Assembly (NCBI GenBank): GCA_030345135.1
Contig: CP128386.1
Span: 4,534,363 to 4,598,362 of the forward strand
Length of the DNA: 64,000 nt
Source: Chitinophagaceae bacterium DXS
GTDB taxonomy: Bacteria; Bacteroidota; Bacteroidia; Chitinophagales; Chitinophagaceae
Reading direction: 5' to 3'
Shown here: piece after piece, positions 34,254 through 60,237 of the stretch
How the letters are laid out: every line of letters starts with the position of its first letter
Position numbering within the stretch: the stretch's first letter is position 1
Made by a program: the position numbers and the translations under genes
Notes under the pieces: model-generated
What the model was told of the DNA's origin: nothing
Seen by the model: the letters and a program-made list of their open reading frames with translations, nothing else
The model's database searches: none

Positions 34254-34269
34254 TTCAAAAAAATCAGTT

Positions 34270-43188: not shown

Positions 43189-43810
43189 TGTTTCACCTAA
43201 CATACTTCGTACCTCGTACTTCGTACTTTTTTGCATTCTTTGATGAGTACACTCTGCATCGTACACCATAAATCTAACTTCACCTTGCATACCCGCCGCC
43301 TGTTTCACCTAACGTACTTCGTACCCGTCCGAACGCACATTCGGCGCGGGCGGGCTTCGTAATTCGTACTTCATTACATTCCTTGATGAGTACATTCTAC
43401 CTCGTACACCGTACCCGCCCGAACGTGCCGTCGGTACGGGCTGGCATCTGACATCGTACATCTAACATCTGACATCTGACATCGTACCTCGCATACCATC
43501 AGCCTGTTTCACCTAACGTACTTCGTACCCGTCCGAACGCACATTCGGCGCGGGCGGGCTTCGTAATTCGTACTTCATTACATTCCTTGATGAGTACACT
43601 CTACATCGTACACCGTACCCGCCCGAACGTGTCGTCGGTACGGGCTGGCATCTAACATCGTACATCGTATACCATCAGCCTGTTTCACCTAACGTACTTC
43701 GTACTTCGTAATTCGTACTTGCTGTGCCTTCCAACATCCATCCACCTACATTCACCAAACACGCTACATCGTACCCGCCCGAACGTGCCGTCGGTACGGG
43801 CAGGCATCTA
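43189..43810. repeat. Direct-repeat block with GC-rich hairpins before the third susC
   Basis: The word TGTTTCACCTAAC(G/A)TACTTCGTAC begins units at 43189, 43301, 43505 and 43681. Units 2 and 3 are nearly identical over about 170 bp. Each contains two GC-rich stem-loops built from CCCG(T/C)CCGAACG and CG(C/T)(G/A)CGGGCGGG/TACGGGC words; unit 4 has one. Between them are runs of GTACTTCGTAATTCGTACTT. The rest of the window has lower GC, so these hairpins stand out. It is noncoding in all frames. Confidence 0.8.
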
Positions 43811-43958
43811 ACATCTTCCTCCGCCTATCGGTATCGTTTGCGAAATCGTTCCCGGTAGATTTCGTTATCAGTGTATAGCTTTCGTTTTTTAAACTTCTCT
43901 ATCATTGCAATCAGTTTTACGATCATGCTTTCTGAAACTAACTAAAGATAACTTGCAT

Positions 43959-46900
43959 ATGAAGAAATTGTCTCTCACACTCAAAACCGTTTATGGTTTT
44001 GCCGCAACATTCCTTCTGATGTTGCTACTGGTTTCAACAGTCATTCATGCACAAAACCTTCCGGCGGTAACGGGCAAGGTTCTGGATGAAAACAATAAGC
44101 CCCTTGCAGGAGCGTCGGTTACCATAAAAGGATCATCCAAAAGCACAGTAACAAATAACGCTGGTGAATTTACGTTGAAAGATGTTAAACCCGGCACAAC
44201 TGTCAGTATTTCCTTCCAGGGATATGAAAATGCAGACCTTGCGATTAGAGATCAAACCAACTACACCATAGCGTTGAAGCTGGATGTAAAACAGCTAAGT
44301 GATGTTGTTGTGGTTGGTTATGGAACCCAACGTAAAGCTGCATCAACAGGTTCTATTGCTTCTGTAAAAGCAGCAGATATAACGCAAACGCCTGTGATAA
44401 ATGTGGCGCAGGGCCTTGCGGCAAGAGTTGCGGGTGTGCAGATAACACAGAATAATGCTGCTCCCGGCGGCAACATCAGCGTGCGTATCCGCGGTACAAA
44501 CTCAATCAATGGTTCTTCCGAGCCGTTATATATTGTTGACGGAATTCAGATCTCCAACGGAGGAAGCGTCACAGATGTAAGTCCGTTATCTACTATCAAT
44601 CCAAACGATATTGAATCAGTTGAAGTGTTGAAAGATGCCTCTGCTACGGCCATCTACGGTGCAAGAGGCGCAAACGGCGTGGTGCTTATCAGTACGAAAA
44701 GAGGTAAGAACGGAGCCACCAGGGTTCAGCTTGAGACATATCAGGGTGTCCAGAATATTACAAAAAAACTGGACATGATGAATGCTTCGCAGTTCGCTCA
44801 ATTGGAGAATGACGTATATAATACCGCAGTTTACGATAATCCTTCATCACTGGGTGCAGGAACCGACTGGCAGGACTATACTTACCGTAAAGCAAACATG
44901 CAAAATTACCAGGCAGCAGTAAGCGGCGGTTCTGATAAAACAGTGTTTTCATTATCCGGCAACTATTTCAACCAGGATGGGATCATCATTAAATCAAATT
45001 TTAACCGCTACTCATTAAGAGCTACACTCGACCATACCATCAGTAAACATTTCAAAGTAGGAACAAGTATTCTTACAAGCTATACAACCAACAATAACAT
45101 CCCAACCGGCATTAACTCAATTGACGGTCCGGTGGTTACACAAGGCATAGTGGGTGCTACGTTAGGTGCTCCCCCAACTTTAGTACCTTATAAAGAGGAT
45201 GGCAGTATTTATCCTTTTGCAGATCAGTTCAACGGTCGTTACCGAGAGGTTGCCAATCCGATTGGTCTGGCAGAAATATTAAATCGAAACACCATAAAGC
45301 GCACACTTGCGAACGTGTACGTTGAAGCAAAAATAATTGACGGTTTGAGCTATCGCGGATCTTTCAATGCGGATATTTCCGGTACATTAAACGATTATTA
45401 TTCTCCTTTGTATATACTGGGTAAGGCAGAAGTAAGCGTTAACTCAGGTTCAGCTCAAAAAGGAAATGTGAACACAACTGCATGGCTGCATGAAAGTGTT
45501 CTTACTTACAACCGCAATTTTGGCGATCATTCTTTAAAGTTTACGGGTGTGTATGCTACACAGGCAAATATGTACAACGCCAATAGCATAAGCGCAGGCG
45601 GCTTTCCGAATGATGCAACGCTGAATGAGGCTGTACAACTTGCGATAAACCGCACGGTAAGCAGCAATCGTAGTAAAGATGTGTTAAACTCTTACATGGG
45701 ACGTATTAACTACGGCTACGCAAACAAATATTTTGTAGATATTACTGCGCGTTATGATGGTGCATCTAAATTTGGAGAGAATCATAAATGGGGTTTCTTT
45801 CCTGCAGTAGCAGCTGCATGGAGAATTATTGAAGAGCCATTCATGAAGAACAACAGGATCTTCAGCGATCTTAAACTTCGCGGAAGCTACGGATCGACAG
45901 GTAACGCAGGCGCTATCGCTCCATACCAATCACTCGCGCTTGAAGGTTCAGGAAGCAATTACCAGTTTAACCATATTTATACAGTTGGTATCAGTCCAAC
46001 AGGCATTCCCAATAAAGATCTCCGTTGGGAAAGATCATTGCAGGCAAATGTTGGTTTAGATATCGGGTTCTTTAATAACAGATTGAACCTGGTTGTAGAT
46101 TATTACAATAAAGAAACTAAAGATCTGCTCTTCGTCAAGAACCTGCCGTTATCCTCAGGGTATTCTTCTGTGACGGGTAACTTTGCAAGCATCCGGAACA
46201 AAGGTTTCGAAGTAGCTGCTGATGCAAGAATACTTACCGGCAAGTTTAAGTGGAACGTTAATGCAAATCTTTCCTTTAACAGAAACGAGTTATTGGGGCT
46301 TGAAGGCGGCGTGAATGAATTTGTATTGAATCCCTACAGTGTGTTAAGAGTGGGCCAGCCGCTGGGTGTCTTTAAGACGTATGTGTTTAATGGAATTTAC
46401 CAGGCCGGTGAAGCAGTATTGCCTGGAAGTGGTAGCAGAACCGGTGGTGTTAAAGTTGCAGATCTGAACAATGATAAACAGATCACCAGCGATGACCAAC
46501 GAATTACAGGTAATGCTAATCCTTCTTATATTTTTGGATTCTCATCCAATTTCAGTTACAAGAATTTTGATTTAAGCTTTTTCTTCTCAGGCGTCCAGGG
46601 CAACAATATCTTTAACCTGAGCCGTTACACTTTCGAGAATGCGCTTGGTGGAAGGAACGTTGTTGAAGGTATGGTAAACAGATGGTCGCCAACCAATCCA
46701 AGCGACGAATATGCATCCGGGTTCCAGGGCGGAAGAATTCCTGTATCAGACCGCTTTGTTGAAGATGGATCATACATACGTATGAAGAATATTACGCTCG
46801 GTTATAAATTTCCAGCCATTAAAGGTATTTCAAGTGCAAGGATCTATGTGAGCGGTAATAACCTGTTTACGATTACAAAGTATTCGGGCTACGATCCTGA

Positions 46901-47000
46901 AGTAAACTCCTTCGGCGGATCAAATACATTAATCGGCATTGATAACCTGGTATACCCAATGGCAAGATCATTCCTTGTTGGCGTCCAGGTTGGATTTTAA
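43959..47000 (+). CDS. SusC/RagA-family TonB-dependent transporter (third locus)
   Basis: A 1,013-residue outer-membrane transporter starting MKKLSLTLKTVYGF at 43959; an upstream in-frame TTG at 43905 is less likely because the signal peptide (ending HAQ near residue 32) begins here. The CarboxypepD_reg-like domain (VTGKVLDENNKPLAGASVTIKG) is followed by the plug (VVVGYGTQRKAASTGSIASV, VRIRGTNSINGSSEPLYIVDGI, VEVLKDASATAIYGARGANG) and the barrel ending in FLVGVQVGF. It pairs with the SusD 50 bp downstream. The ligand is unknown; downstream esterases and a GH2 enzyme suggest an acetylated glycan. Confidence 0.93.
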   Translation: MKKLSLTLKTVYGFAATFLLMLLLVSTVIHAQNLPAVTGKVLDENNKPLAGASVTIKGSSKSTVTNNAGEFTLKDVKPGTTVSISFQGYENADLAIRDQTNYTIALKLDVKQLSDVVVVGYGTQRKAASTGSIASVKAADITQTPVINVAQGLAARVAGVQITQNNAAPGGNISVRIRGTNSINGSSEPLYIVDGIQISNGGSVTDVSPLSTINPNDIESVEVLKDASATAIYGARGANGVVLISTKRGKNGATRVQLETYQGVQNITKKLDMMNASQFAQLENDVYNTAVYDNPSSLGAGTDWQDYTYRKANMQNYQAAVSGGSDKTVFSLSGNYFNQDGIIIKSNFNRYSLRATLDHTISKHFKVGTSILTSYTTNNNIPTGINSIDGPVVTQGIVGATLGAPPTLVPYKEDGSIYPFADQFNGRYREVANPIGLAEILNRNTIKRTLANVYVEAKIIDGLSYRGSFNADISGTLNDYYSPLYILGKAEVSVNSGSAQKGNVNTTAWLHESVLTYNRNFGDHSLKFTGVYATQANMYNANSISAGGFPNDATLNEAVQLAINRTVSSNRSKDVLNSYMGRINYGYANKYFVDITARYDGASKFGENHKWGFFPAVAAAWRIIEEPFMKNNRIFSDLKLRGSYGSTGNAGAIAPYQSLALEGSGSNYQFNHIYTVGISPTGIPNKDLRWERSLQANVGLDIGFFNNRLNLVVDYYNKETKDLLFVKNLPLSSGYSSVTGNFASIRNKGFEVAADARILTGKFKWNVNANLSFNRNELLGLEGGVNEFVLNPYSVLRVGQPLGVFKTYVFNGIYQAGEAVLPGSGSRTGGVKVADLNNDKQITSDDQRITGNANPSYIFGFSSNFSYKNFDLSFFFSGVQGNNIFNLSRYTFENALGGRNVVEGMVNRWSPTNPSDEYASGFQGGRIPVSDRFVEDGSYIRMKNITLGYKFPAIKGISSARIYVSGNNLFTITKYSGYDPEVNSFGGSNTLIGIDNLVYPMARSFLVGVQVGF

Positions 47001-47050
47001 GTACTCAGGAAAAAAGAAAAAGTATTAAGCGGTTCTTTAAATGAAGTAAT

Positions 47051-48541
47051 ATGAAAGCAATAAAAAACTTACAATATATTTTAGGCGGCGTTTGGGCCCT
47101 GGTGATAACAGCATCTTGCAACAAGCTGGATGAAAAGCCTTACTCATCTATTTTTACGGAGAGCTTTTACAAAACAGCCTCTGATGCGGAAGCTGCGCTA
47201 ACGGCCGCGTACGGTCCGTTAACGGGTTTGTATTTTACCGCTGCTACCTGTGTGCCTGATTTTAGTGCTGATCAGATCTATCCAAGACCCGTGGTTGGAA
47301 GAGATACTTACACGTTATTTAGCTATGACCAGAACTATACCACGCAAAAAAGCTTTAGCAGGCAGAATGAATCTGCTCAGCAAATCTGGGAATCTTGTTA
47401 CTCAGGTATAGAGAAAGCCAATTGGGTGTTATATAAAGTGCCTTCAACAAATATGGATGAAGCGAGGCGCGACGTTATTTTGGGAGAAGCTTTTTACCTG
47501 CGCGCATTTTACATGTGGATGCTCACAAAGAATTTTCGTGATATAGTAATTAAAACTTCACCAAGCATCAGTATTGATTCAGCCATTATTGGTAAAAGTC
47601 CGCAGGCAGATGTTTTCAAGCAGATCTTTGCAGACCTGGATCAGGCTGTAAATAAATTGCCCGACTATGCACCAGGCATTCAAAAAGGACGTCCGTCGAA
47701 ACAGGTGGCCCAGGCATTGTATGCAAAGGCGGCGTTGTATGCAGAGAACTGGACCCTGGCGCTTGAAAAAGCAAAAGATGTTTTAAATGCCAATAAATAT
47801 GCTTTGATGCAGAATGTGAAAGATGTTTTTGACGTTTCAAAAGAAGATGTGGCAAGATTAGAAAATATGTGGGCGTTTGAATGTGAAAGTACTTCTCCGG
47901 GTTTTGGAACACAGATTATCAGTCTGTACGGACCGCGTAATAGTGATGGACCGCAATTCTCAGCTACTTCTTTTGGTTCTGCGTTTGTATACCAGTCATT
48001 CTTCAATTCATTTGATCCTTCGGATAAAAGAAGACAGTTGCTTGATACCAACTATATCAATAAACAGGGGCAGACAGTCGCACAAAAAGACATTACACCA
48101 ATTACAACGCAGGGCGTACTGTTGAAGAAATACATGGATCCTGTGGCACCGAGCAATGCAGTTAATATTCCGATCCTGCGCCTGGCGGATGTGTATTTGA
48201 TTGCAGCTGAAGCCGAAGCAAGACAAAATGGTGCTACTACAAATGCTTATGGTTATATAAAAGTTGTACGGGACAGGGCTGGTTTGCCTGACCTTACACC
48301 TGGTCTCAGCAAAGAACAATTTGTTGATGCCGTATTGCAGGAACGGAGCTGGGAATTTTTTGGTGAAGGCGACAGGTGGTATGACCTCACAAGAACAAAC
48401 ACGTTTATTAAAGTAACAACGGCGGCGGTGAACAATGTGTTCCCTGTAAGAAATCCACAGTCACGCAACCGTTATTTCCCAATTCCGTTGGATGAAATAA
48501 ATGCCAATCCAAAACTTGAACAAAATCCTGACTGGAAATAA
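47051..48541 (+). CDS. SusD/RagB-family glycan-binding lipoprotein (third locus)
   Basis: A 496-residue lipoprotein with lipobox ITASC (Cys23), then NKLDEKPYSSIFTESFYKTASDAEAALTAAYGPLTG. Family signatures: GEAFYLRAFYMWMLTKNFRDI, YGYIKVVRDRAGLPDLTPGLSKEQFVDAVLQERSWEFFGEGDRWYDLTRTN and the ending RYFPIPLDEINANPKLEQNPDWK. It follows SusC in the same operon and is 7 bp from the downstream esterase start. Confidence 0.92.
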   Translation: MKAIKNLQYILGGVWALVITASCNKLDEKPYSSIFTESFYKTASDAEAALTAAYGPLTGLYFTAATCVPDFSADQIYPRPVVGRDTYTLFSYDQNYTTQKSFSRQNESAQQIWESCYSGIEKANWVLYKVPSTNMDEARRDVILGEAFYLRAFYMWMLTKNFRDIVIKTSPSISIDSAIIGKSPQADVFKQIFADLDQAVNKLPDYAPGIQKGRPSKQVAQALYAKAALYAENWTLALEKAKDVLNANKYALMQNVKDVFDVSKEDVARLENMWAFECESTSPGFGTQIISLYGPRNSDGPQFSATSFGSAFVYQSFFNSFDPSDKRRQLLDTNYINKQGQTVAQKDITPITTQGVLLKKYMDPVAPSNAVNIPILRLADVYLIAAEAEARQNGATTNAYGYIKVVRDRAGLPDLTPGLSKEQFVDAVLQERSWEFFGEGDRWYDLTRTNTFIKVTTAAVNNVFPVRNPQSRNRYFPIPLDEINANPKLEQNPDWK

Positions 48542-48548
48542 GCGATCG

Positions 48549-49364
48549 ATGAAAGTAGTTGTGTATCTTATCTGTATTGTAATGTGTAATTGCGCAATGG
48601 GACAGGCAGGTGCATTGTTCCTGGTAGCTGGTCAAAGTAATGCGGTAGGGCAGGGCGATAGCCTGCAGTCTGCGCAATGTGATGCCGGAAGCGCTTATGA
48701 ATATAGTTTTATAACGAATGCACTTAGGGAGCTAAAAGATCCGGTAGGTATTGCGGAATTACATTTCGAGAAAGCACATACAGGCAGTGCGTGGCCGGCT
48801 TTTGCAAAGGCATTTCATCAACTGTCAGGAAAAAAAGTAATTATTATTCAGGCAGCACGTGGTGGTAGTTCGTGTCATATTAAAGCCGAAATGAATAACT
48901 ATGGCACCTGGGATACGCAAGGCCATCTTCCGTTGTTTGACAGCGCCATCATAAAAGCAAAGGCTGCTGCACACAATACCAACATGCCTGTTGCCGGCAT
49001 TATCTGGAGCCAGGGTGAAAGAGATGCCAATGCAATTAACGCGGGACAGCTTACAATTACTGAATATAAAAATGCACTTGAAAGTGTGATTAAAAGATTC
49101 AGAAATGAGCTCGGAGAGAAGATTCCATTTTACATTATACAGACTGGCCACTATGTCAATCATCCGGTTAATGGTTTTGATGAGGTTCGTAAAAGCCAGG
49201 AAGAAGTGGCTGGAACTATGAAACATGTTTTTATTGTTTACAGCGATACAAATACGTTCAGGCAGAAGCAGTGGATGAAAGATGAGATACATTATAATCA
49301 AACTGCACTAAACGATATAGGAAAGGAGATTGCTAATAAAGTGTTTTTAACGAACAAGAAGTAA
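48549..49364 (+). CDS. SASA/SGNH-type carbohydrate acetylesterase, exported (small)
   Basis: A 271-residue enzyme starting MKVVVYLICIVMCNCAMGQ, a signal peptide. An in-frame ATG at 48501 lies inside susD and would add 16 residues, so 48549 is chosen. SGNH blocks: FLVAGQSNAVGQGDS (Ser30 nucleophile), IIIQAARGGSSCH (oxyanion Gly), IIWSQGERDA (block with Glu) and DEIHYNQTALNDIG (His248). The family (sialate O-acetylesterase SASA/CE6-like) removes O-acetyl groups from glycans. It overlaps no neighbour but is only 7 bp after susD and 1 bp before GH2, so these are co-transcribed. Confidence 0.85.
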   Translation: MKVVVYLICIVMCNCAMGQAGALFLVAGQSNAVGQGDSLQSAQCDAGSAYEYSFITNALRELKDPVGIAELHFEKAHTGSAWPAFAKAFHQLSGKKVIIIQAARGGSSCHIKAEMNNYGTWDTQGHLPLFDSAIIKAKAAAHNTNMPVAGIIWSQGERDANAINAGQLTITEYKNALESVIKRFRNELGEKIPFYIIQTGHYVNHPVNGFDEVRKSQEEVAGTMKHVFIVYSDTNTFRQKQWMKDEIHYNQTALNDIGKEIANKVFLTNKK

Positions 49365-49365
49365 G

Positions 49366-51351
49366 ATGAAACTAAGATTGATTCTGGTATTATGTTTTTT
49401 GCCTGCGATTGCGTTTACGCAGGGACGGAAAAGTAGTGAACTAAATGGCCAATGGACGTTTGCTATGGATCCCCTGAAAGTAGGTGAACAGCGAAAATGG
49501 TTTGAGAATGTTTTTCCGTCAGATAAATTTGACAAGGTTAAGGTTCCCCACTGTTTTTCTGTTGATCCGCGTTATATGTTCTACACGGGTACTGCCTGGT
49601 ATTTTAAAAGATTTGCCGCTGCACCTGTTGATAACGGCCATGTATTTGTGAAGTTTGATGCCGTGTTTTATAAATCTAAAATATGGTTGAATGGAAACCT
49701 GATTGGCGAGCATGAAGGTGGATATACGCCATTTGAGTTTGATATTACGCAATATTTAAAACCGGAAAATGTATTGTCCGTGCAGGTGAGCAATGCATGG
49801 GATACAACTACGATACCTGGCGCAAAAACTGCTATGAATTATTCGGGCGATAACCAGGCCCAGGTTTTTCCCTGGATTAATTATGGAGGTTTGACGAGAG
49901 CGGTGCATTTGATAACCCGTCCCGACGTGTATGTAAGTAATGCAAAAGTTGTTGCTGAGCCAGATCTGAAAAAAGGAGATGCTTCCGTTCGTATTACAGC
50001 ATTGGTTAAGAATAGTGCTTCTACTGCGCAGAAGGTAACGGTGAATGCCTTTGTGTTTAATAATGGTAAACAGAGCAGTATCAAATTTAAGCCTGCTACA
50101 GTTAGCGTGGAAGCAAGCGGAGCGAATAAGGTAGAAATAATTGCACACATGCCAGCGAATGAGGTAAAACTATGGAACCAGGACGAACCTAATCTATATG
50201 CGGCCCATATTGTAGCCGGTGGCGATACCTTGAATGTGAATTTTGGCATCCGCAAATTTGAAGTGTCTGGCACTAAACTTTTATTAAATGGGGAACCAAT
50301 AAAAATGGGTGGTTGTAACAGGCCTCTCGATTACCCTGGCTATGGTTCAATGGATCCGCAGGAAGTACTTGACAAAGATCTTGCCCTGATAAAAGGCGGC
50401 ACCATGGAGCTTTCCCGTATCAATCATTATCCTGTATCTGAATATTTGTTGGATTGGGCAGATAGAAGTGGCTTGCTGATAATTGAAGAAGCGGGCAACT
50501 GGCAAATGACGCCAAAACAAATGAGTGATACCATGATGCGTCGCAAGTTTCAATCGCAAATGCAGGAAATGGTTGAACGTGACTGGAACCACCCAAGTGT
50601 TGTGGCTTATAGTGTAGGTAATGAATTTCAATCCCAGGCAGAAGAAGGCAAGGCTTGGGTACGCGATATGAGCAGTTTTGTAAAATCACTTGATAATTCG
50701 CGTTTGATCACGTTTGCGAGTATGATTGTATTCCGCGACTGGATTAAGAAGCCTGAAGATGAAGCTTCCCAATATGTAGATTTTGTGAGTGCCAACATAT
50801 ACACTGATCATCTTAAACATGTACAACATATACATGAATTGTACCCAAACAAGCCGGTGTATATAAGTGAGTTTGGCCTTCGGGCAGACGAAGGTAAAAC
50901 CGAGGAAGAGCGCGTGCAACATTTGAAAAAAGCGATGGCAGATTTCAGGCAATGTGATTATGTAGTGGGCGCATCAGTGTGGACTTTCAATGATTATTTC
51001 AGCCGCTTCCCCGGCACAGGTGCCAATGGATACAGGGCATGGGGCCTCGTGTCTCCGGAAAGGGAAAAACGAGGTATGTACATCGCATGGCAGGAAGAGT
51101 TTGCACCCGCTACACTTGAGCTGCTGAATAAGCAAAACGGCAAGGCTGTTATCAATGTAACTGCCAGGAAGGATTTTCCAAGCTATACGATCAAAGGATA
51201 CCGCATCAGGTATAACGACAGGGAAATTGCTTTAAATACGTTGCACCCGGGTGAGAGTCAGCAGATTGATGTCGACTTGCCTGCCGGCGAAGTTGAAGTG
51301 GAACTTGTGAAGCCTGGTGGCTTTGTGATACTTAAAAAACTATTGAAATAA
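49366..51351 (+). CDS. GH2 glycoside hydrolase (beta-glucuronidase/beta-galactosidase type)
   Basis: A 661-residue exported enzyme (signal MKLRLILVLCFLPAIAFTQ). The GH2 sugar-binding domain is at about 25-180 (LNGQWTFAMDP, VKVPHCFSVDPR, VFYKSKIWLNGNLIGEHEGGYTPFEFDIT), the immunoglobulin-like domain at about 180-300, and the TIM barrel at about 300-600 with acid/base Glu420 in SVGNEFQSQ and nucleophile Glu502 in YISEFGLRADEG. The loop reads GGCNRPLDYPG in place of the common GVNRH. The C-terminal ~70 residues form a beta-sandwich. Whether it acts on glucuronides, galactosides or mannosides cannot be decided from motifs alone. Confidence 0.88.
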   Translation: MKLRLILVLCFLPAIAFTQGRKSSELNGQWTFAMDPLKVGEQRKWFENVFPSDKFDKVKVPHCFSVDPRYMFYTGTAWYFKRFAAAPVDNGHVFVKFDAVFYKSKIWLNGNLIGEHEGGYTPFEFDITQYLKPENVLSVQVSNAWDTTTIPGAKTAMNYSGDNQAQVFPWINYGGLTRAVHLITRPDVYVSNAKVVAEPDLKKGDASVRITALVKNSASTAQKVTVNAFVFNNGKQSSIKFKPATVSVEASGANKVEIIAHMPANEVKLWNQDEPNLYAAHIVAGGDTLNVNFGIRKFEVSGTKLLLNGEPIKMGGCNRPLDYPGYGSMDPQEVLDKDLALIKGGTMELSRINHYPVSEYLLDWADRSGLLIIEEAGNWQMTPKQMSDTMMRRKFQSQMQEMVERDWNHPSVVAYSVGNEFQSQAEEGKAWVRDMSSFVKSLDNSRLITFASMIVFRDWIKKPEDEASQYVDFVSANIYTDHLKHVQHIHELYPNKPVYISEFGLRADEGKTEEERVQHLKKAMADFRQCDYVVGASVWTFNDYFSRFPGTGANGYRAWGLVSPEREKRGMYIAWQEEFAPATLELLNKQNGKAVINVTARKDFPSYTIKGYRIRYNDREIALNTLHPGESQQIDVDLPAGEVEVELVKPGGFVILKKLLK

Positions 51352-51366
51352 AGTTCTTATAAAACA

Positions 51367-53379
51367 ATGGTTTCATTCAAAACGATATCTTCCGGTTGTT
51401 GCTTTTTGCTTTGTCTTTTTACATTGACGATTTCTAATAATGTTAATGCACAACCGGTACAATTGCCGCATTTCTTCAGCAGTAATATGGTATTGCAGCG
51501 GCAGAAGCCGATTGTGATCTGGGGCACAGCGCGTGCAAACTATGTGTTTCAAATAGCGTTTGCAGGAAAGAATAGTAAGGTTGTTACAGGTAAAGACGGA
51601 AAATGGCAGGCTGTATTCCCTGCAATGCCAGCCGGTGGTCCTTATGATTTGGTCATTAACGCAGATTCTTCTTATACATTGCGTAACATAATGATCGGAG
51701 ATGTTTGGCTGTGCTCAGGGCAAAGCAATATGGAATGGATCATGCTGAAAACATTCAATGCGCCATACGAATTGCAGCATGCCGGTTATCCTGCAATTCG
51801 CTTCATCACCGTTCCAAAAAATGTGAGCGCTGTTCCAAAAGATGATATTGATAGGGCTGAGTGGAAAATATCAACTCCTGCAACTGCTTACGAGTGCTCG
51901 GCGGTGGCTTTCTTTTTTGCAAAGCGGCTTTATGAGAAGTATAAAGTGCCAATTGGTATTATTCACTCTTCCTGGGGAGGCACACCAATAGAGGCCTGGA
52001 CAGGGTTTGATTCAATTGCCTCACAGCCCGGTTTTAAGGAAAAGGCTGCTGTTGTATCAAAGCAAAATGCTGAAGGTAAAACGGTACAAGCGCTGCAGGC
52101 GTTATACGCTGATAGCTTAAAACAATATCAATCGGCTTTGCAGATGTTGGATAGAGGTTATGTTGAAAAATGGTACGGTGCAGGTTTAAATCCATCAAAC
52201 TGGGGAAAGATCAGTCTGCCTGCTCTTTTTACAGACACACTAACAAGCTATAAAGGGAGCATTTGGTTACGGAGATCCTTTTATGTTCCTCCGATGCTCG
52301 CAGGAAAGGATCTGATACTTAATCTGGAAACATTGAATGAACGGGATATAACATGGTTCAATGGCATTGTTGCCGGCTCAACTTCCTGGGCTCCGGGCAG
52401 AAGGACTTATCGCATACCAAAAGCTTTTGTTCATGAGGGAGAAAACAATATAGCTATCCGTTTAGAGAATTTTGAAAAGATCAGCGGCTTCCAAAGTAAA
52501 AATGCTGCAGATCTCAGAATAGAACCCCTGGTTGCTTCAGATCGATCAATTGTAATTCCGCTTGCCGGCGAGTGGAGGTATGCAACCGGTCTAAGTCTTG
52601 ATAAATATCCACACCAGGTAACGGCCCCGCCTTTGTCTTATCAATTAGCTGCATTGTATAATGCCATGATTGCTCCTTTTAAAGACCTTGGGCTGAAGGG
52701 CTTTACGTGGTACCAGGGAGAAGCGAATGCCGGACGTGCATTTCAATACAGGAAATTATTGCCGTTGATGATCAATAATTGGAGGCAGCAATTCAACCAG
52801 GGAGATCTTCCTTTCCTGTATGTACAGTTGGCTGGCTTTGGAAAACTGACCGGGGATCCTGTTGAAAGTGAATGGGCTGAATTGAGAGAAGCGCAGGAGA
52901 AGACTTTGTCGTTGGCTAATACGGGTATGGCCGTTACTGTGGATGCCGGTAATCCTTACGATGTTCATCCGACAGATAAACAAACTGTAGGCAAGCGCCT
53001 CGCTGCAGCCGCTGAAAAGATGGCATATGGTGACACTGCATTGCAGATCTCGCCGCTATATCAATCTTGCCGGATTCAGAATGATACAATCTACATAAAG
53101 GTGAATAACGTTAGAAATGGGTTGATTGCAAGAGGTGCGATGGCAAAAGGTTTTTCTATTGCTGGGAGTGATCATCGCTTTGTATGGGCTGATGCAGTTA
53201 TTCGCAATAATGAAATAGTTGTGTGGAATAAGTCAGTATCAAATCCATTAGCTGTGCGGTATGCATGGACAGGAAGCCCTGTAGAAAGCAATGGTGCAAA
53301 TATTTACAATAAAGAGGGTTTTCCGCTGTCTCCTTTCAGAACAGATGACTGGAAAGGTATTACGGAAGACAGAAAATAA
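51367..53379 (+). CDS. Large sialate O-acetylesterase-like (SASA) esterase, exported
   Basis: A 670-residue enzyme with a signal peptide ending near NVNAQ. The N-terminal FSSNMVLQRQKPIVIWGTA and GDVWLCSGQSNMEW (Ser120) are the family's opening motifs. Other SGNH elements are PIGIIHSSWGGTPIEAWTG, GFTWYQGEANAGRAFQYR and YDVHPTDKQTVGKRLA (His near 534). A galactose-binding-like beta-sandwich is inserted at about 255-410 (LRRSFYVPPMLAGKDLILNLETLNERDITWFNG). It removes acetyl groups from sialic acid or other sugars; with a GH2 enzyme and a second esterase the target is probably an acetylated plant or microbial glycan, which is inference. It starts 15 bp after GH2. Confidence 0.9.
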   Translation: MVSFKTISSGCCFLLCLFTLTISNNVNAQPVQLPHFFSSNMVLQRQKPIVIWGTARANYVFQIAFAGKNSKVVTGKDGKWQAVFPAMPAGGPYDLVINADSSYTLRNIMIGDVWLCSGQSNMEWIMLKTFNAPYELQHAGYPAIRFITVPKNVSAVPKDDIDRAEWKISTPATAYECSAVAFFFAKRLYEKYKVPIGIIHSSWGGTPIEAWTGFDSIASQPGFKEKAAVVSKQNAEGKTVQALQALYADSLKQYQSALQMLDRGYVEKWYGAGLNPSNWGKISLPALFTDTLTSYKGSIWLRRSFYVPPMLAGKDLILNLETLNERDITWFNGIVAGSTSWAPGRRTYRIPKAFVHEGENNIAIRLENFEKISGFQSKNAADLRIEPLVASDRSIVIPLAGEWRYATGLSLDKYPHQVTAPPLSYQLAALYNAMIAPFKDLGLKGFTWYQGEANAGRAFQYRKLLPLMINNWRQQFNQGDLPFLYVQLAGFGKLTGDPVESEWAELREAQEKTLSLANTGMAVTVDAGNPYDVHPTDKQTVGKRLAAAAEKMAYGDTALQISPLYQSCRIQNDTIYIKVNNVRNGLIARGAMAKGFSIAGSDHRFVWADAVIRNNEIVVWNKSVSNPLAVRYAWTGSPVESNGANIYNKEGFPLSPFRTDDWKGITEDRK

Positions 53380-53423
53380 GATCTGTAAACGAATCGGTTT
53401 TATAATACGTCAAAACATCAAGA

Positions 53424-55709
53424 ATGATACAATCAGAAAGCAGGGATAGCCGCTCTTTTCCCGTCGTAAAAATACATGCGGACCTGGTTATAACGGGAGG
53501 AGGCTTGTCGGGCGTTTGTTGCGCTATCACTGCTGCCAGGCAGGGGTTGAAAGTTGTACTGGCGCAGGATAGAAGTGTGTTGGGTGGCAATTCAAGCAGT
53601 GAGGTGAGGCTTTGGGTACTGGGTGCAACTTCTCATATGGGCAATAATAATCGCTGGGCACGAGAAGGCGGTGTGATTGACGAAATATTGGTAGAGAATA
53701 TGTACTGCAATCCCGAAGGTAATCCCATAATTATGGATATGATCTTGCTCGATAAAGTGGTGAGCGAACCCAATATTGAATTACTGTTGAATACATCCGT
53801 TTATGATGTGGTGAAGAAAGATGCTGATACCATTGAATTTGTAAAAGCTTATTGCAGCCAGAGCCAGACTTCTTTTGAGTTACATGCGCCACTGTTTTGT
53901 GATGCTTCTGGTGATGGTGTTGTAGGATTCTTGTCCGGCGCAGCATTCAGGATGGGAGCGGAGAGCAAAAATGAATTTGGAGAGCAGTTTGCACCAACGG
54001 AGGAGTATGGAGAATTGCTGGGTCACTCTTTGTATTTCTATTCAAAGGATACAGGTGTGCCGGTTAAGTTTGTGCCTCCGTCATTTGCATTGAACGATAT
54101 CACAAAGATCCCCCGCTTCAAAAGTTTTAATTCGCAGGAGTTCGGTTGTAAACTTTGGTGGATTGAATATGGCGGCAGACTGGATACAGTACATGATACG
54201 GAAAAGATAAAATGGGAGCTCTGGAAGATTGTTTATGGTGTTTGGAATTATATTAAAAACTCCGGCAATTTTCCCGAAGCTGAAACCCTTACGCTGGAAT
54301 GGGTGGGCATGATTCCCGGGAAAAGAGAAAGCCGGCGGTTTATAGGCGACTATCTTCTACGTCAGCAGGATATTGTTGAGCAACGGACCCACCCTGACGC
54401 AGTTGCTTTTGGTGGCTGGAGCATCGACCTCCACCCTTCTGACGGGGTTTATTCCAGTGCTCCCGGATGCAATCAGTGGCACAGCAAAGGCATTTACCAG
54501 ATCCCTTATCGCAGCCTGTATTCAAAAAATATCAAAAACCTTTTTCTTGCAGGTCGCATCATTAGTGTGTCGCATGTTGCATTTGGTTCTTCACGCGTTA
54601 TGGCCACCAGCGCTTACGTAGCACAGGCGTCAGCAATGGCTGCAGTGTTGTGCAAAAAATACAATTGCAAGCCTGCTGATTTACTTCCAAAAGAGAAAAT
54701 GATTGAATTACAGCGCTCACTCGCCCGCATTGGCCAGTTCATTCCGGGTGCTGATGTGATTGATGAAAAGGATCTTGTTCAGCAGGCTACAATCATAGCT
54801 AGCAGCGAGCTGCAATTAAAAGAGCTGGAAGAAGATATTGAAAGAGTTTCGTTAGATCTTTCAGTAGCGCAAATGATTCCTGTTGAAAAAGGACAAATTC
54901 CTGAAGTATATTTTCATGCCTATGCTGCGGAGCAGGCAATATTGCACGCTGAGATCAGGGCTTCATCACGTATTAATAGTTTTACACCCGATACTTGCCT
55001 GGCAAAATTTGAATTGCCGGTTCAGCCTGGTAAAAATTGCCTGCGGCTTAAAACGGATATTGAAGTGAGTGCGTCACAATATGTTTTTGTTACTATACAT
55101 AAATGTCCCTCCGTTAGCGTGTCAAGGTCTGAAAAACGCATTACAGGCATATTGAGTGTATTTAATACGGTTAATCCCGCTGTCTCCAACTATGGCAAAC
55201 AGGAAGCTCCGGATGAGATTGGTATGGATAGCTTTGAATTCTGGTGTCCGCAGCGCAGACCTGCCGGTCATAACCTGGCACTGAAATTTGAGCATCCATT
55301 GAATGTGTTTAAAGCCGGGAATATTCGCAATGGTATTGCGCGCCCGGTGAGTGCGCCAAATGCATGGGTGGCTGACTTTTCGGATAAATCACCCACATTA
55401 ACCATTACGTGGGAAAGCCCAAAACACTTAAAAAAGATACTCTTAAGTTTCGATTCGGATTTTGATCATCCGATGGAATCGGTGTTAATGTCTCATCCGG
55501 AAAATGTAATGCCTTTCTGTGTGCGTAATTATGCCATTTATGATGACAGGGATAATTTGTTGTTTGAAAAAAAAGGCAACTATCAAACGAGAAATGAAAT
55601 TGTGCTTGATGAAGCGATAACAACAAACAAGTTAGTCATTCGTGTTGAACATCCGTCAGAGTATTCACCTGCGGCTGTGTTTGAGGTGAGGTGCTATGAG
55701 GAGCTGTGA
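53424..55709 (+). CDS. FAD-dependent oxidoreductase (FAD_oxidored family), probably cytoplasmic
   Basis: A 761-residue protein with no signal peptide. The Rossmann FAD-binding motif is DLVITGGGLSGVCCAITAARQG (Gly25-Gly26-Gly27), followed by the flavoprotein stretch VLGGNSSSEVRLWVLGATSHMG (about 56-77), FCDASGDGVVGFLSGA, and a late FAD contact LFLAGRIISVSHVAFGSSRVMATSAYVAQAS (about 375-405). The C-terminal ~300 residues are beta-rich and may be a substrate-binding domain. Such enzymes occur in Bacteroidota glycan loci but their substrates are mostly unknown. It may oxidise a sugar released by the GH2 enzyme. It begins 44 bp after the esterase. Confidence 0.83.
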   Translation: MIQSESRDSRSFPVVKIHADLVITGGGLSGVCCAITAARQGLKVVLAQDRSVLGGNSSSEVRLWVLGATSHMGNNNRWAREGGVIDEILVENMYCNPEGNPIIMDMILLDKVVSEPNIELLLNTSVYDVVKKDADTIEFVKAYCSQSQTSFELHAPLFCDASGDGVVGFLSGAAFRMGAESKNEFGEQFAPTEEYGELLGHSLYFYSKDTGVPVKFVPPSFALNDITKIPRFKSFNSQEFGCKLWWIEYGGRLDTVHDTEKIKWELWKIVYGVWNYIKNSGNFPEAETLTLEWVGMIPGKRESRRFIGDYLLRQQDIVEQRTHPDAVAFGGWSIDLHPSDGVYSSAPGCNQWHSKGIYQIPYRSLYSKNIKNLFLAGRIISVSHVAFGSSRVMATSAYVAQASAMAAVLCKKYNCKPADLLPKEKMIELQRSLARIGQFIPGADVIDEKDLVQQATIIASSELQLKELEEDIERVSLDLSVAQMIPVEKGQIPEVYFHAYAAEQAILHAEIRASSRINSFTPDTCLAKFELPVQPGKNCLRLKTDIEVSASQYVFVTIHKCPSVSVSRSEKRITGILSVFNTVNPAVSNYGKQEAPDEIGMDSFEFWCPQRRPAGHNLALKFEHPLNVFKAGNIRNGIARPVSAPNAWVADFSDKSPTLTITWESPKHLKKILLSFDSDFDHPMESVLMSHPENVMPFCVRNYAIYDDRDNLLFEKKGNYQTRNEIVLDEAITTNKLVIRVEHPSEYSPAAVFEVRCYEEL

Positions 55710-55898
55710 GCTGTCAGCTATCAGCTATCAGCTATCAGGTGTCACGTATCAGTTTTGATGCATGAGGTATGAGAAGGCATGAGGGGTAAGTGTTCGGTCA
55801 ATCTGAACAACAAATATATCTATTGTAGTACTGTTTAAAATTGAGTCTTTAGTTTTAGGCTTTAAGCTTTACGCTTTGAGCTTTCAAAAAATGTGCGT

Positions 55899-58475
55899 AT
55901 GAAAAAAGTTTTGTTATTAATAGTATTGCTGGGTTACACCGTAGGCTTGTTCGCGAAAGAAGATGTTATAGAACTTGTAAACAAAAGCATTCGGATTTCA
56001 TGGGTGAAAAAAAGTGAAGGATGGCGGATTAAAAGTTTTGAATACAATGTCGGAGGACAGTGGCAATCCGTTGGTCGTCCGTCAGGCGAATACAGTTTGC
56101 TGTATGCAGCTCAGAAACCGGCTCAACAACCTGACACTATTTTCAAAACCATTACTGGTAATCCATGGCCGGATACGTTATATAAATACCAAATCAATAA
56201 TTGGAAACAGGCTACTTCTCCTGTGTCTCTCAATACTGCTGGAGATGCTTATCATTATTTTCCTTCCGCAGCAACTAAGCAAGGGAATATTGTTCAGTTC
56301 ACACAAGAGACACCACTGGGAATTATCAAGACAGAGTGGAAGCTCGATGATGAGCATAACGGAGATGTATTGGTGAAGCAGGAAATGACCTGTAAGAAAG
56401 ATGGTTATTTTTCGCTGGCAAGCCCATCGCTTGTTACTGTAGATGAACAAGATATTTCCTGGGCAACCGTTCCTGGGTATTTTCAGGGAAATGAAGTACA
56501 GAAGAATGTGATACTGGGTTATGGGTACGGGCAGGGTATTCCGGCTTTGCCTGTTGTGTATCGTGAACGTTGTGCCAGTTCCTTTTGCCCTATCATAACT
56601 ACCAGAGAACAAGTTTCTTTTGCTGTTATTCCCAATCCTGGTCTAGGGCGTGATCCATGGGCGTATGATAAAAGTACACATGAAGATTGGTTCCTGGGAA
56701 TCTCTCATAAAAACCGGCGTTCGCAATTTTCCCCAACGATGTATTACCCTGTTTTAGGTGAGCCTTCGTCCCTGCAAAAGCAAGGAAATAAAATACAATA
56801 CGGTTTTCGTTACAGTATTCAGAATGGGGGATGGTACAAGCTTTTAACACACGCGGTCAATGATGTGTATGGCTTTAATAAAACGCTTGCACTCCGGAAA
56901 AATAAGCAGGCGCTGGTAAACAGGATTGAAAAAATGCACGATTATCTCGTTGATAGAAAAACATCTTTATGGAGCGTTGAGGATTATAAAGGCTTAAAGA
57001 TAGGAGGGCAGGCTTATTTCGGAGGCGTGGTAGGTTCTAATCGTGATGCCATGAAAAATTCGGATTATGGTGCGATGTGGATGCTGGCAAACCTGAGTGG
57101 CGACCAGTTCCTCAAAGACAGTGTGCTGCCTTTTGCTTTGAACTTTAAACTGGCACAGCAACAAACGGATGATGGCTTCTTTAAAGGTGCCGCAATAGGG
57201 CAATACTATCTTGCAAAAAGAAAAACCTTTACAGAGGAGTGGGGTGAGTTCGTGGAGCCCGTTAGCCTGACATACTACATAATGCTCGATATTGGTAATA
57301 TCCTTCTGTTTGATCCCAATAACGCTGCATTAAAAGAACGCCTGGCGCTTGGTGCAGATCTGTTAATGAAATGGCAGAAGCCCGGTGGCGATTGGGAAGT
57401 TGCTTATGATAAGCATACGCAACAACCTTTGTTCACAGATATAAAAGACCTCCGGCCAACATTTTATGGGTTGATGGTTGCTTACCGCATTCTGAAGGAT
57501 GAAAAATATTTATCAGCTGCTAAAAAAGGTGCAGACTGGTTTATTAAGAATGCGGTGGAAAAAGGAAATTTTATTGGTGTTTGTGGTGATGCGCGTTATG
57601 CGCCGGACTTCGCGACAGGGCAATCCGCACAGGCATTGCTGGACTTATATGATCTCACCAATGACAAAAAATACCAGGATGCTGCTATCCAAACTGCAAG
57701 AATGTATCTGACTTCAATTTATGCGCAACCTGTTGCCAGCAGCAAAATAAAGCAGGTGAATGGTGTTGAACGGGAGGACTGGCAAATTTCGCAATCAGGA
57801 TTAAGTTTTGAACATGGCGGCATCTTAGGTTCAGCCAATCACGCCGGGCCGATTATGCTTTGTAGCCACGCAGGTATGTTTGTCCGTATGTTTCAACTCA
57901 CGGGAGAATTGTTGTTTATAGAAACTGCACGTGCGGCCGCTATAGGAAGAGATGCCTTTGTTGACAGCAAAACCAGCGTAGCTTCCTATTATTGGAACAC
58001 GATGAATAAAGGCGCAGGTCCCTACCCGCATCATGCCTGGTGGCAAATTGGCTGGATCACCGATTACCTGATGGCAGAGGTGCAAATGCGTTCTAATAAC
58101 CAGGTTGTTTTTCCAAGAGGTTTTGTAACGCCTAAAGTGGGTCCGCATGAATCTTATGGGTTTGCCCCGGGCAAAATATTTGGTGAGTCAGCCAATTTAA
58201 TCATCCGCGAGGGATTGGTAACATGCGACAATCCGAATGTTGAATATATCCTGGCTCAAAGCGTTGATAAAAAGAAATTGTTCATCATCTTACTTAATGA
58301 CATAAATGAACCGGCCAGTGCAAACCTTAAGATCAACATTCAACAAGCCGGCACCGTTAGTCAAACCCGAAAAAATACAATAACAGAACTTTCGACGGGA
58401 AAAAGCGGGGGGTTAACAGATTCGTTTAAAACGGAAATAAAAGGTTACGGGCTGCGGGTTTATGTAATTGAATAA
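55899..58475 (+). CDS. Exported protein with (alpha/alpha)6-toroid-like glycosidase fold, unrecognised family
   Basis: An 858-residue protein starting MKKVLLLIVLLGYTVGLFA, a signal peptide; an in-frame GTG lies 6 bp upstream at 55893. Residues about 20-330 are beta-rich (supersandwich-like). Residues about 360-660 contain helical-hairpin repeats like those of six-hairpin glycosidases and lyases (SDYGAMWMLANLSGD, LGADLLMKWQKPGGDW, LRPTFYGLMVAYRILKDEKYLSAAKKGADWFIKNAV, GQSAQALLDLYDLTNDKKYQDAAIQTAR). A C-terminal beta domain follows. Acidic residues on the toroid face (TEEWGEFVEP, GGDWEVAYDKH) could be catalytic. I do not recognise the family and assign no substrate. Genomic context between the oxidoreductase and a symporter suggests a degradative role. 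Confidence 0.7.
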   Translation: MKKVLLLIVLLGYTVGLFAKEDVIELVNKSIRISWVKKSEGWRIKSFEYNVGGQWQSVGRPSGEYSLLYAAQKPAQQPDTIFKTITGNPWPDTLYKYQINNWKQATSPVSLNTAGDAYHYFPSAATKQGNIVQFTQETPLGIIKTEWKLDDEHNGDVLVKQEMTCKKDGYFSLASPSLVTVDEQDISWATVPGYFQGNEVQKNVILGYGYGQGIPALPVVYRERCASSFCPIITTREQVSFAVIPNPGLGRDPWAYDKSTHEDWFLGISHKNRRSQFSPTMYYPVLGEPSSLQKQGNKIQYGFRYSIQNGGWYKLLTHAVNDVYGFNKTLALRKNKQALVNRIEKMHDYLVDRKTSLWSVEDYKGLKIGGQAYFGGVVGSNRDAMKNSDYGAMWMLANLSGDQFLKDSVLPFALNFKLAQQQTDDGFFKGAAIGQYYLAKRKTFTEEWGEFVEPVSLTYYIMLDIGNILLFDPNNAALKERLALGADLLMKWQKPGGDWEVAYDKHTQQPLFTDIKDLRPTFYGLMVAYRILKDEKYLSAAKKGADWFIKNAVEKGNFIGVCGDARYAPDFATGQSAQALLDLYDLTNDKKYQDAAIQTARMYLTSIYAQPVASSKIKQVNGVEREDWQISQSGLSFEHGGILGSANHAGPIMLCSHAGMFVRMFQLTGELLFIETARAAAIGRDAFVDSKTSVASYYWNTMNKGAGPYPHHAWWQIGWITDYLMAEVQMRSNNQVVFPRGFVTPKVGPHESYGFAPGKIFGESANLIIREGLVTCDNPNVEYILAQSVDKKKLFIILLNDINEPASANLKINIQQAGTVSQTRKNTITELSTGKSGGLTDSFKTEIKGYGLRVYVIE

Positions 58476-58548
58476 AATTAACCTGTTACAGTAATCGCCT
58501 TTCAGAAAAACAGAATAATTATCTTTCGAGTAAAACTAAAACAGCTAT

Positions 58549-60237
58549 ATGGGGCAACTTGATTTTATTGTGATGGCGGTGTTCGCTTTGCTGATATTGG
58601 GCATAGGCATGATGTTTACAAGAATGGGAAGCAAGAACTCTTCCGCTTTTTTTGAAGCAGGAGGATCTACTCCCTGGATGATCAACAGCATTTCGTTGTT
58701 CATCAGTTATTTTTCGGCTGGAACTTTTGTCGTATGGGGTTCTATCGCCTATAAAAGCGGTTTTGTTGCTAATGGCATACAATTAACGATGGTTATTGGC
58801 GGGCTTATAGTAGCCATGTTCATAGCAGCAAAATGGAAACGTACAGGAGCAGTTACTGCAGCCGATTATATCGGAAAACGTCTTGGCACTAAAACACAAC
58901 AGTTTTATACGTTTCTTATTATGCTGCATGGATTGTTTACCACTGCTTCGGTGTTATATCCTGTTGGTAAAATGGTAAGTGTTGCTACGCCTTTGTCGCT
59001 AAATACGTGCATTCTGATTATTGGTGGTATCATCATATTATACACTTCTGCCGGGGGGTTATGGGCAGTGTTGGTTACAGACGTCGTGCAGTTTGTTATA
59101 CTTACTGCTGCAGTTCTTATAATCATTCCCATTGCATTTAAAGAAGCCGGGGGCGCCAATCATTTTGTGCAGCAGTCGCCGGATGGATTTTTTAAATTCT
59201 TTAATGAAGAATATTCTTTTGGTTTCTTTCTGGCCTTTCTGGCTTATCAAACGGTCTATATCGGAGGTAACTGGGCCTATGTACAACGATACACCAGTGT
59301 TTCCAGTGAAAAGAATTCACGTAAAGTGGCTTACCTGTTTTCTATACTGTATTTGATAAGCCCATTTATCTGGATGCTTCCTCCGATGTTGTATCGCGTG
59401 ATTAATCCTTCACTTACCGGCTTACAACCGGAAGGAGCATACATGATGTTGTGTCAGCGCATTTTGCCTGCCGGGCTGATAGGTTTGGTTTTGTCCGGCA
59501 TGATCTCAGCCAGCGCCAGCAAAGCCAATACTACTATTAATATGATGGCTATTGTGTTCGCTCATGATGTATTTAAAAAGCTGATTAGTCCGAATGCGAG
59601 CGAGAGGACGTTGATAAAAATGGCGCGCGTATTTACGGTATTGTTTGGCGCCATTACAATTGGTATTGCCATGCTGGTGCCAATGATTGGCGGCATTGTT
59701 GAAATGGTGCTCAGTACTGCTTCAATTGCAGGCGGCGCACTATTCGCGCCAATTATCTGGACGCTTTATTCAAAAAGACAAACGGCAACATCAGTTGTGA
59801 GCGCTTCGTTATGCGGCCTGGTGATCAGCCTGGCTTTAAAGTTGTTTGGTCCGGAGCTTATTGGACATAAGCTCAACCGTGTATGGGAGACTTCGTTGGG
59901 AGTGGGCATACCTGTATTTGTGTTGTTGTGCTGGGAATTGTATTATGTAGCTAAAGGAAGCATTGCTGTTCATCGCTTTGTGCCTGCGGCAGAAAAGTCA
60001 CGCGATGTAATTCATCAGAATAATGCCGATGCCCATGAGCAGAACGTTTTTGGTGTTAAAATAATCGCAGGTGCAGTTGCTGTCGTTGGCGCAGGTGTGG
60101 CATTATTGGGTATAATCGCAGATAACGGAACTGTTGCGCTCGTTGTCGGCATATTTATATTATTTACCTCATTGCCTATCTGGCGGGCAGCTTACAAGCC
60201 TGTTCGACAAAGCGTAAGAGATACCGGGTCTTTATAG
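58549..60237 (+). CDS. Sodium:solute symporter family (SSS) transporter
   Basis: A 562-residue inner-membrane transporter with about 13-14 hydrophobic helices. SSS features are FFEAGGSTPWMINSISLFISYFSAGTFVVWG (helices 1-2 with the sodium-site region), AADYIGKRLGTKTQQFYTF, IIILYTSAGGLWAVLVTDVVQFVIL (helix 5-6 region) and GLIGLVLSGMISASASKANTTINMMAIVFAHDVFKKL (helix 8-9 region). It imports a sugar, sugar acid or related solute driven by sodium. As the last gene of the third locus it is the likely inner-membrane importer for the final product. The ATG at 58549 is preceded by a 73-bp gap. Confidence 0.9.
   Translation: MGQLDFIVMAVFALLILGIGMMFTRMGSKNSSAFFEAGGSTPWMINSISLFISYFSAGTFVVWGSIAYKSGFVANGIQLTMVIGGLIVAMFIAAKWKRTGAVTAADYIGKRLGTKTQQFYTFLIMLHGLFTTASVLYPVGKMVSVATPLSLNTCILIIGGIIILYTSAGGLWAVLVTDVVQFVILTAAVLIIIPIAFKEAGGANHFVQQSPDGFFKFFNEEYSFGFFLAFLAYQTVYIGGNWAYVQRYTSVSSEKNSRKVAYLFSILYLISPFIWMLPPMLYRVINPSLTGLQPEGAYMMLCQRILPAGLIGLVLSGMISASASKANTTINMMAIVFAHDVFKKLISPNASERTLIKMARVFTVLFGAITIGIAMLVPMIGGIVEMVLSTASIAGGALFAPIIWTLYSKRQTATSVVSASLCGLVISLALKLFGPELIGHKLNRVWETSLGVGIPVFVLLCWELYYVAKGSIAVHRFVPAAEKSRDVIHQNNADAHEQNVFGVKIIAGAVAVVGAGVALLGIIADNGTVALVVGIFILFTSLPIWRAAYKPVRQSVRDTGSL

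Follow-up and report, generated by a model that had tools for sequence, protein, structure and literature searches.

A polysaccharide-utilization locus of Chitinophagaceae bacterium DXS built around an unnamed toroid protein family and a flavin oxidoreductase

A 64,000-nucleotide stretch of the Chitinophagaceae bacterium DXS genome (positions 4534363-4598362 of the single 7.29 Mb contig; hereafter the window) contains a complete SusC/SusD polysaccharide-utilization locus built around a toroid protein of a new, unnamed family and a flavin oxidoreductase. The 858-amino-acid toroid protein (hereafter TOR) and the PF12831 FAD oxidoreductase (hereafter FADox) are encoded in a same-strand run at 43905-60237 together with SusC, SusD, two SGNH/SASA esterases, a GH2 protein, and a symporter, with 50, 7, 1, 15, 44, 189, and 73 bases separating consecutive genes from SusC to the symporter (Table 1). 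The SusC and SusD genes are thus paired with co-directional carbohydrate-active enzyme (CAZyme) genes, and every gene of the run has a clear Pfam domain with the exception of TOR. The original prediction, made from the letters of the window, had presented 48549-58475 as a locus for the degradation of an acetylated glycan with an oxidative step. The five reading frames in this interval are intact and the functions named for them are backed by Pfam (Table 1), but the interval does not cover the whole locus, as SusC and SusD upstream and the symporter downstream also belong to it. The locus almost certainly acts as one unit, and the association of its genes is not due to chance, given that TOR is surrounded by genes of the same types in loci of other genera.

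Conservation of the gene module around TOR

Relatives were collected in a scan of one genome per species across 84,980 species, which resulted in 231 pattern stretches, 223 of them encoding a TOR relative; more than one such stretch may fall within a single TOR gene. From these, the 80 best loci were retained; they originate from Chitinophaga, Spirosoma, Dyadobacter, Runella, Larkinella, Chryseolinea, and other genera. The closest named relatives of TOR are from Chitinophaga, with 70% identity (locus L019). TOR is uncommon among sampled genomes, being found in 12 of 147 from the family and in 4 of 395 from the phylum, the DXS genome being counted in both. Neighboring genes of at least 120 amino acids were called with a simple open reading frame (ORF) script and clustered using BLAST and Louvain. 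Genes on the same strand as TOR and separated by gaps of up to 400 bases were considered to form its directon. Since some of the 80 loci are cut by contig ends, the directon counts are lower bounds.

A gene from the FADox cluster is present in the TOR directon of 71 of the 80 loci, SusD in 68, SusC in 67, the symporter in 66 (in 53 loci as the immediate neighbor of TOR), and GH2 in 53. The conserved core consists of SusC, SusD, TOR, the symporter, GH2, and FADox, with the esterases being accessory, and the module is under selection. The link to redox chemistry made in the original prediction is borne out by the frequency of FADox. PF12831 matches three genes in the 7.29 Mb of the DXS genome at E up to 1e-20, or about 0.01 per 22.5 kb, a background rate counted in this genome only, and relative to these three genes a presence in 71 of 80 directons argues that the association of TOR with FADox is not due to chance. 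The FADox cluster mixes cytosolic and apparently secreted types (71 and 39 members, respectively, as divided by a rough pattern that misassigns some of them, at the least a few).

The LacI-family protein encoded upstream of SusC is probably the regulator of the TOR locus, judging by its sequence. It shares 68% identity with the LacI of another TOR locus (L081) and 55-59% with those of five further loci for which the comparison was listed, and a gene from the LacI cluster was found in 47 of the 80 loci. The second LacI in the window (13921) is at most 41% identical to the LacI proteins of TOR loci. The gene at 41794-42960 also adjoins a GH32 gene (40065-41588), which renders the assignment less certain. 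The gap between LacI and SusC (43187-43704) contains a 26-base element in four copies, one of which has one mismatch. The element lies partly within a 204-base tandem repeat of 1.9 copies, and one more copy is present elsewhere in the genome and none in shuffles of the window. A promoter scan returned 32 sites, fewer than the 42.1 in shuffles, and a terminator scan 25 sites, more than the 15.6 in shuffles; neither was used for any reading.

Table 1. Genes of the TOR locus and its putative regulator (window positions)
Feature	Position	Strand	Basis and remarks
LacI-family regulator	41794..42960	-	Pfam LacI and Peripla_BP_3; divergent from SusC
SusC-type TonB-dependent transporter	43905..47000	+	Pfam Plug, CarbopepD_reg_2
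SusD-type glycan-binding lipoprotein	47051..48541	+	Pfam SusD_RagB, 130.4 bits
Secreted SASA/SGNH carbohydrate esterase, 271 aa	48549..49364	+	Pfam SASA, 88.9 bits
Secreted GH2 exo-beta-glycosidase, 661 aa	49366..51351	+	Pfam GH2 domains, TIM barrel 95.5 bits
Secreted SIAE-like SASA/SGNH esterase, 670 aa	51367..53379	+	Pfam SASA, 64.7 bits, 2 stretches
FADox, 761 aa	53424..55709	+	Pfam FAD_oxidored PF12831, 305.5 bits (cut-off 27)
TOR, 858 aa, apparent signal peptide	55899..58475	+	Fold model and family alignments
Sodium:solute symporter (SSF)	58549..60237	+	Pfam SSF, 136.9 bits

Sequence, predicted fold, and relatives of TOR

The 858-residue protein had been described as a six-hairpin glycosidase-like protein that could not be placed in a family, a fair judgment given the searches of Pfam, NCBIfam, and PDB sequences, and a profile search of 55899-58475 found no clear match to a characterized family. 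No Pfam family exceeds its cut-off for TOR, with GH88 (PF07470) reaching 24.1 bits (25.6 in the genome search) relative to a cut-off of 26.6 and GH127 (PF07944) 20.8 bits relative to 24.9. NCBIfam yielded no match at E up to 0.05. The TOR protein and the TOR profile each matched 11 PDB sequences at E up to 1, but only weakly (best E 0.035 and 0.013, respectively), and 5nok and 5no8 were absent from both sets. Two far paralogues matched no PDB sequence at E up to 1, and a tblastn search for TOR in plasmids returned no match. When 53 TOR orthologues were searched against Pfam at E up to 0.001, weak matches were obtained to GH88 in 35, to GH127 in 29, and to a C5-epimerase in 9. The GH88 and GH127 matches are local, clustering around TOR residues 490-607 and covering part of the toroid only. 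Matches of the same 53 sequences to NCBIfam were scattered and weak, for example oxidosqualene cyclase in 5 and pectate lyase in 2.

The AlphaFold model of TOR (predicted local distance difference test score (pLDDT) 90.2, predicted template-modeling score 0.91) comprises a beta-sandwich (approximately residues 23-310), an (alpha/alpha)6 toroid (335-735), which corresponds to the six-hairpin core of the original prediction, and a C-terminal beta region (755-858). The top Foldseek match is PL27, with E 6.8e-10 and a template-modeling (TM) score of 0.34 that denotes a loose overlap; toroid glycosidases and phosphorylases, among others, follow close behind. Among the 50 VIA rows listed, more than 400 residues are aligned only for PL27 5no8 (494 residues, Z 16.9, root-mean-square deviation (rmsd) 7.8) and PL26 5xqj (438 residues, Z 16.5, rmsd 26.4), with single toroids reaching Z values of about 16-19. 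In terms of the predicted model, the architecture of TOR is familiar and the family is not.

Passages of PMC8377490 describe the PL27 enzyme BACCELL_00875 (5nok/5no8) as an L-rhamnose-alpha-1,4-D-glucuronate lyase that acts from the chain end and has a beta-sandwich and (alpha/alpha)6 architecture. TOR shares this architecture and superposes on it loosely, but there is no sequence match, and TOR is longer, with its C-terminal beta region. Release of rhamnose by beta-elimination in the manner of PL27 is hypothetical for TOR. The PL26 exo-rhamnogalacturonan lyase also acts from the chain end and resembles TOR in the extent of its VIA alignment, but it differs in the high rmsd and in an hhalign probability of 0.1% for three PL26 proteins (L104-L106). 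No PcRGLX (PL26) match was found in TOR at E up to 0.05, and PF21345, which we take to be the Pfam accession of PL26, was not found in the DXS genome at E up to 0.001. With no sequence relation to either, TOR was rejected as a plain member of PL27 or PL26. GH88/GH105 and GH127 share the six-hairpin core and the local matches with TOR, which nevertheless stays below the GH88 and GH127 cut-offs. According to portions of PMC12269599, GH154 provides a case of an enzyme from a polysaccharide-utilization locus that, after an initial classification as a hydrolase, was reported to be a uronate dehydratase, with constructs of about 400 and 645 residues as compared with 858 for TOR. GH154 8OI4 is absent from the PDB sequence matches of TOR at E up to 1 and from the 50 fold rows listed, which excludes nothing.

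TOR is distantly related to longer proteins of approximately 940-970 and 1100-1160 residues (hhalign E 7.6e-59, 725 columns), which are often encoded alongside it. TOR belongs to a superfamily with at least four subfamilies, including P959, P941, and P1100. In an alignment of 29 chosen sequences from four subfamilies, 11 of which are TOR, the polar residues S172, S291, E638, R684, Y697, H712, D722, and S732 are invariant (29/29). In the model, E638, R684, and Y697 are located between toroid helices, H712 starts the last helix, and D722 is inside it. Glu638, Tyr697, His712, and Arg684 may be regarded as candidate active-site residues, which we infer to line the pocket. As read from the alignment, the invariant set would fit a lyase or dehydratase (Tyr/His/Arg) and equally a hydrolase in which E638 is paired with a second acid of lower conservation, such as D517. 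The 1100-residue toroids (L093:12544-15867 and relatives), one of which was scanned with Pfam without a match, share an N-terminal domain with apparently secreted FAD oxidoreductases.

Enzymes accompanying TOR

FADox begins almost at once with its FAD-binding motif, and no signal peptide is visible by eye, unlike in the esterases, GH2, and TOR, which have a visible secretion signal. This start renders a cytosolic action on an imported product more likely, and we consider it an even proposition that FADox acts on imported sugar. The protein also carries a C-terminal beta-rich region. Its fold matches are FAD monooxygenases, FrdA (fumarate-reductase flavoproteins), and geranylgeranyl reductases, which provide a hint of the class only, because the model has a pLDDT of 71 and many low-confidence segments.

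The catalytic motifs of SGNH enzymes are GQSN and a D-x-x-H type motif, and both esterases combine a SASA domain above the cut-off with such motifs (GQSN at 28 and DEIH at 245 in the 271-residue protein; GQSN at 118 and DVHP at 532 in the 670-residue protein). The mechanical ORF of the smaller esterase begins at 48501, within SusD; its gene start was taken as 48549, and the resulting protein has a hydrophobic N-terminus. Deacetylation of sugars is a putative function of both.

The GH2 protein has GH2 domains above the cut-off and both catalytic Glu residues (GNE at 418, SEFG at 501). Its closest PDB chains are the beta-glucuronidase 6ncy, 6d8k, and the beta-galacturonidase 7vqm. In GH2 uronidases, an N-x-K motif contacts the uronate carboxylate. 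At this position the window protein has R-A-W, whereas the aligned 6d8k and 6ncy have N-R-K. The other 26 of the 27 GH2 rows in which the pattern was matched have R-P-W (38 of the 65 rows gave no match), and R-P-W-G stands at 90% or more in the columns of the GH2 alignment (65 rows). The NCBIfam beta-glucuronidase model scores 228.3 bits relative to a cut-off of 544. A typical beta-glucuronidase was rejected on account of the replaced N-x-K.

In the related loci, a protein cluster termed c7, without a meaningful Pfam match, is represented in 33 of 80 TOR directons and 35 of 80 loci. The sequence D-x-x-[A/S/T]-G-A-T is present in each of the 36 c7 members. Like published extracytosolic electron-transfer systems with ApbE substrates, c7 is encoded near ApbE and a flavoprotein, but the ApbE flavinylation target given in PMC12052999, D-x-x-[S/T]-G-A-[S/T], is present in its strict form in 14 of the 36 members, the other 22 having Ala at the fourth place where that motif has Ser or Thr. 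ApbE is encoded in 23 of 80 TOR directons (the L034 member scores 264.6 bits with Pfam). In 34 of 35 loci, c7 is accompanied by a second FAD oxidoreductase (FADox2), which is shorter and has an N-terminal extension and an apparent export signal. The N-terminal domain of FADox2 matches that of the 1100-residue toroids (hhalign 99.6%, E 6.5e-25, 149 columns) in a comparison of 31 and 5 sequences taken with a pattern that catches 31 of 37 FADox2 proteins above 590 amino acids and 5 of 9 large toroids. This shared, related domain ties the redox and toroid enzymes together.

Covalent flavinylation of c7, on the Thr of the motif, is putative. No FMN-binding Pfam model matched the 22 c7 proteins scanned, and the FMN4 domain 8p2b was matched at E 0.58 (positions 122-164), with unrelated chains ranking higher at E 0.045-0.12. 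No c7 was found in the DXS genome at E up to 0.001, and the cluster concerns relatives only; its profile matches 7 of 395 phylum genomes. Seven c7 loci without a TOR gene were inspected (L128-L134; for example, L128:8974-10080), and in these c7 and a FADox-type gene make up a conserved pair. The two adjoin each other in six of the loci and are one gene apart in the seventh, with ApbE in between; Pfam confirmed PF12831 in the three loci scanned. The strict ApbE motif is found in the c7 of six of the seven loci and in one there is none, and the neighbors include sulfatases, an alpha-L-fucosidase, and a CstA-type carrier. In the flavinylation papers PMC8238504, PMC12052999, and PMC10979944, the words polysaccharide and sugar are absent from the main text, and glycan is absent from the two in which it was searched.

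Other polysaccharide-related genes are located upstream in the window. A glucuronoxylan-type locus (15246-22946) contains GH115, GH43, polysaccharide deacetylase, glucuronoyl-esterase-like, and GH10 genes. An apparent fructan locus (27581-41588) encodes a HAD hydrolase, a sugar transporter, a PfkB kinase, a SusC-cluster protein, SusD, and GH32; ahead of it is the gene for a hybrid two-component regulator that has a sugar-binding domain (24520-27315). Two proteins of about 1100 residues from one BLAST cluster (10553-13900 and 36494-39775) are each encoded beside a SusC/SusD pair, the former having FG-GAP and ASPIC/UnbV domains.

Proposed pathway and alternative readings

In the explanation that we favor, SusC and SusD would bring an O-acetylated oligosaccharide into the periplasm, where the two SGNH esterases would deacetylate it and GH2 would take off a beta-linked end sugar. 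TOR, acting from the chain end through a pocket at the mouth of the toroid, would then cut a linkage beyond the reach of the neighboring enzymes. The symporter, which is the probable importer of the released sugar, would carry the product inward, and a cytosolic FADox would oxidize it at a carbon-oxygen or carbon-carbon bond. As a whole, with its localization, substrate, reaction direction, and order all conjectural, this pathway is about as likely to be right as wrong. Taken by itself, cleavage of a glycan by TOR is somewhat favored, and a redox step in the locus is likely, in the window probably a cytosolic one. From the SASA domains we infer that the glycan is acetylated.

Several observations weigh against this explanation. 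Genes from the SASA cluster are found in 14 of 80 TOR directons and from the SIAE cluster in 4 of 80, and the esterases are not part of the core. The core is less strict in more distant loci: of 13 further regions of about 20 kb (12 from Chitinophagaceae or new to the set, with L118 repeating the kept L061, and several ending beside TOR paralogues), 8 contain a FADox-cluster gene, 7 the symporter, and 4 GH2. A crude hydropathy window gives 1.91 for FADox and 2.2-3.2 for the five secreted proteins of the locus, a weak separation. The TM score of the best fold match amounts to a poor overall superposition, and fold alone shows no function. E638 is the single invariant acidic residue between helices, which does not readily suggest a hydrolase with two carboxylates. 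Uronate lyases usually depend on a GH88 or GH105 partner, and no GH88 or GH105 gene was found beside TOR in the chosen part of the neighbors that was scanned with Pfam. In the DXS genome the GH88 matches are weak (best 31.8 bits) and permit no conclusion on unsaturated-uronyl hydrolases there.

The partner genes offer little agreement on the substrate. Core partners are replaced in the 13 further regions by second or third toroid genes and by GDSL, GH3, and GH97 genes. The divergent loci encode GH97, GH3 with PA14, GDSL esterases, GH16 with a golvesin-type domain, and GH43, and further a galactokinase, a sulfatase, and GH31-like, GH28-like, and GH9-like proteins, which disagree on any single glycan. 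Our guess is a galactose- or glucose-containing, often acylated saccharide of plant or algal origin.

Two accounts of TOR can be accommodated as sub-readings of the favored pathway. A tentative one is that TOR is an inverting hydrolase of a new family in the GH65/GH94/GH95/GH116 fold group, using Glu638 and a second carboxylate such as Asp517, with FADox in a side function. Toroid glycosidases and phosphorylases make up many of the Foldseek rows below PL27, Glu is the residue most often aligned with Asp517 in P959 and P941, and the weak GH88 and GH127 matches recur among the orthologues; yet P1100 mostly has a gap at position 517, there is no second invariant carboxylate outside a helix, and no hydrolase family exceeds its cut-off. 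Somewhat doubtful is the account of TOR as an exo-lyase or dehydratase that eliminates uronate in a PL27- or GH154-like manner, with Tyr697 and His712 as base and acid and an arginine neutralizing the carboxylate. Here, PL27 as the best Foldseek match, the long VIA alignments of PL27 and PL26, the Tyr, His, Arg, and Glu among the invariant residues, and the GH154 precedent (as reported in portions of PMC12269599) are countered by the lack of a PL27 chain in the profile search, the negligible hhalign probability to PL26, the lack of a GH88/GH105 partner among the scanned neighbors, and an adjacent GH2 without the uronate motif.

We consider it unlikely that TOR cuts no glycosidic bond and is instead an epimerase, isomerase, or binding protein on a toroid scaffold. 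Cellobiose 2-epimerases and AGE-type enzymes give the best superposition of the toroid by itself (Z about 18-19 over approximately 330-345 residues), but those chains have about 390-410 residues and consist of the toroid only, and the Z values are bunched, giving their ranking little weight. An ordinary locus, with FADox as a bystander and TOR as a divergent protein from a known family to which the profiles are blind, is quite improbable: the fold relations to known toroids are clear and the weak GH88 and GH127 matches recur, but the frequency of FADox in TOR directons speaks against a bystander.

A bolder proposal builds on the known keto-glycoside pathway. TOR and its paralogues would be the cleaving half of a redox-dependent pathway, in which a flavin enzyme produces a keto or unsaturated sugar that then undergoes elimination by Tyr, His, and Glu. 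In many relatives, the secreted redox enzyme would pass electrons to flavinylated c7, forming an extracytoplasmic flavin chain of Bacteroidota dedicated to glycans. The window has a cytosolic flavin enzyme only, so that on this proposal its redox step would follow import. The Ala in most c7 motifs bears most heavily on this proposal, and is balanced by the strict motif in c7 outside TOR loci; we regard the proposal, too, as quite improbable.

No description of the locus was met in the titles or abstract beginnings of the papers listed, which is the sole basis for treating it as unpublished. The TOR family is well conserved, has at least three distant sister subfamilies, and has no curated name that we could find, and its assignment would mend the annotation of no fewer than 80 loci of Bacteroidota from soil and plants. 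The tie between TOR and flavin enzymes suggests that these bacteria regularly employ redox chemistry in glycan use, beside hydrolysis and cleavage by lyases, and with the pair of c7 and oxidoreductase in the relatives it can be tested directly whether protein flavinylation serves the degradation of polysaccharides.

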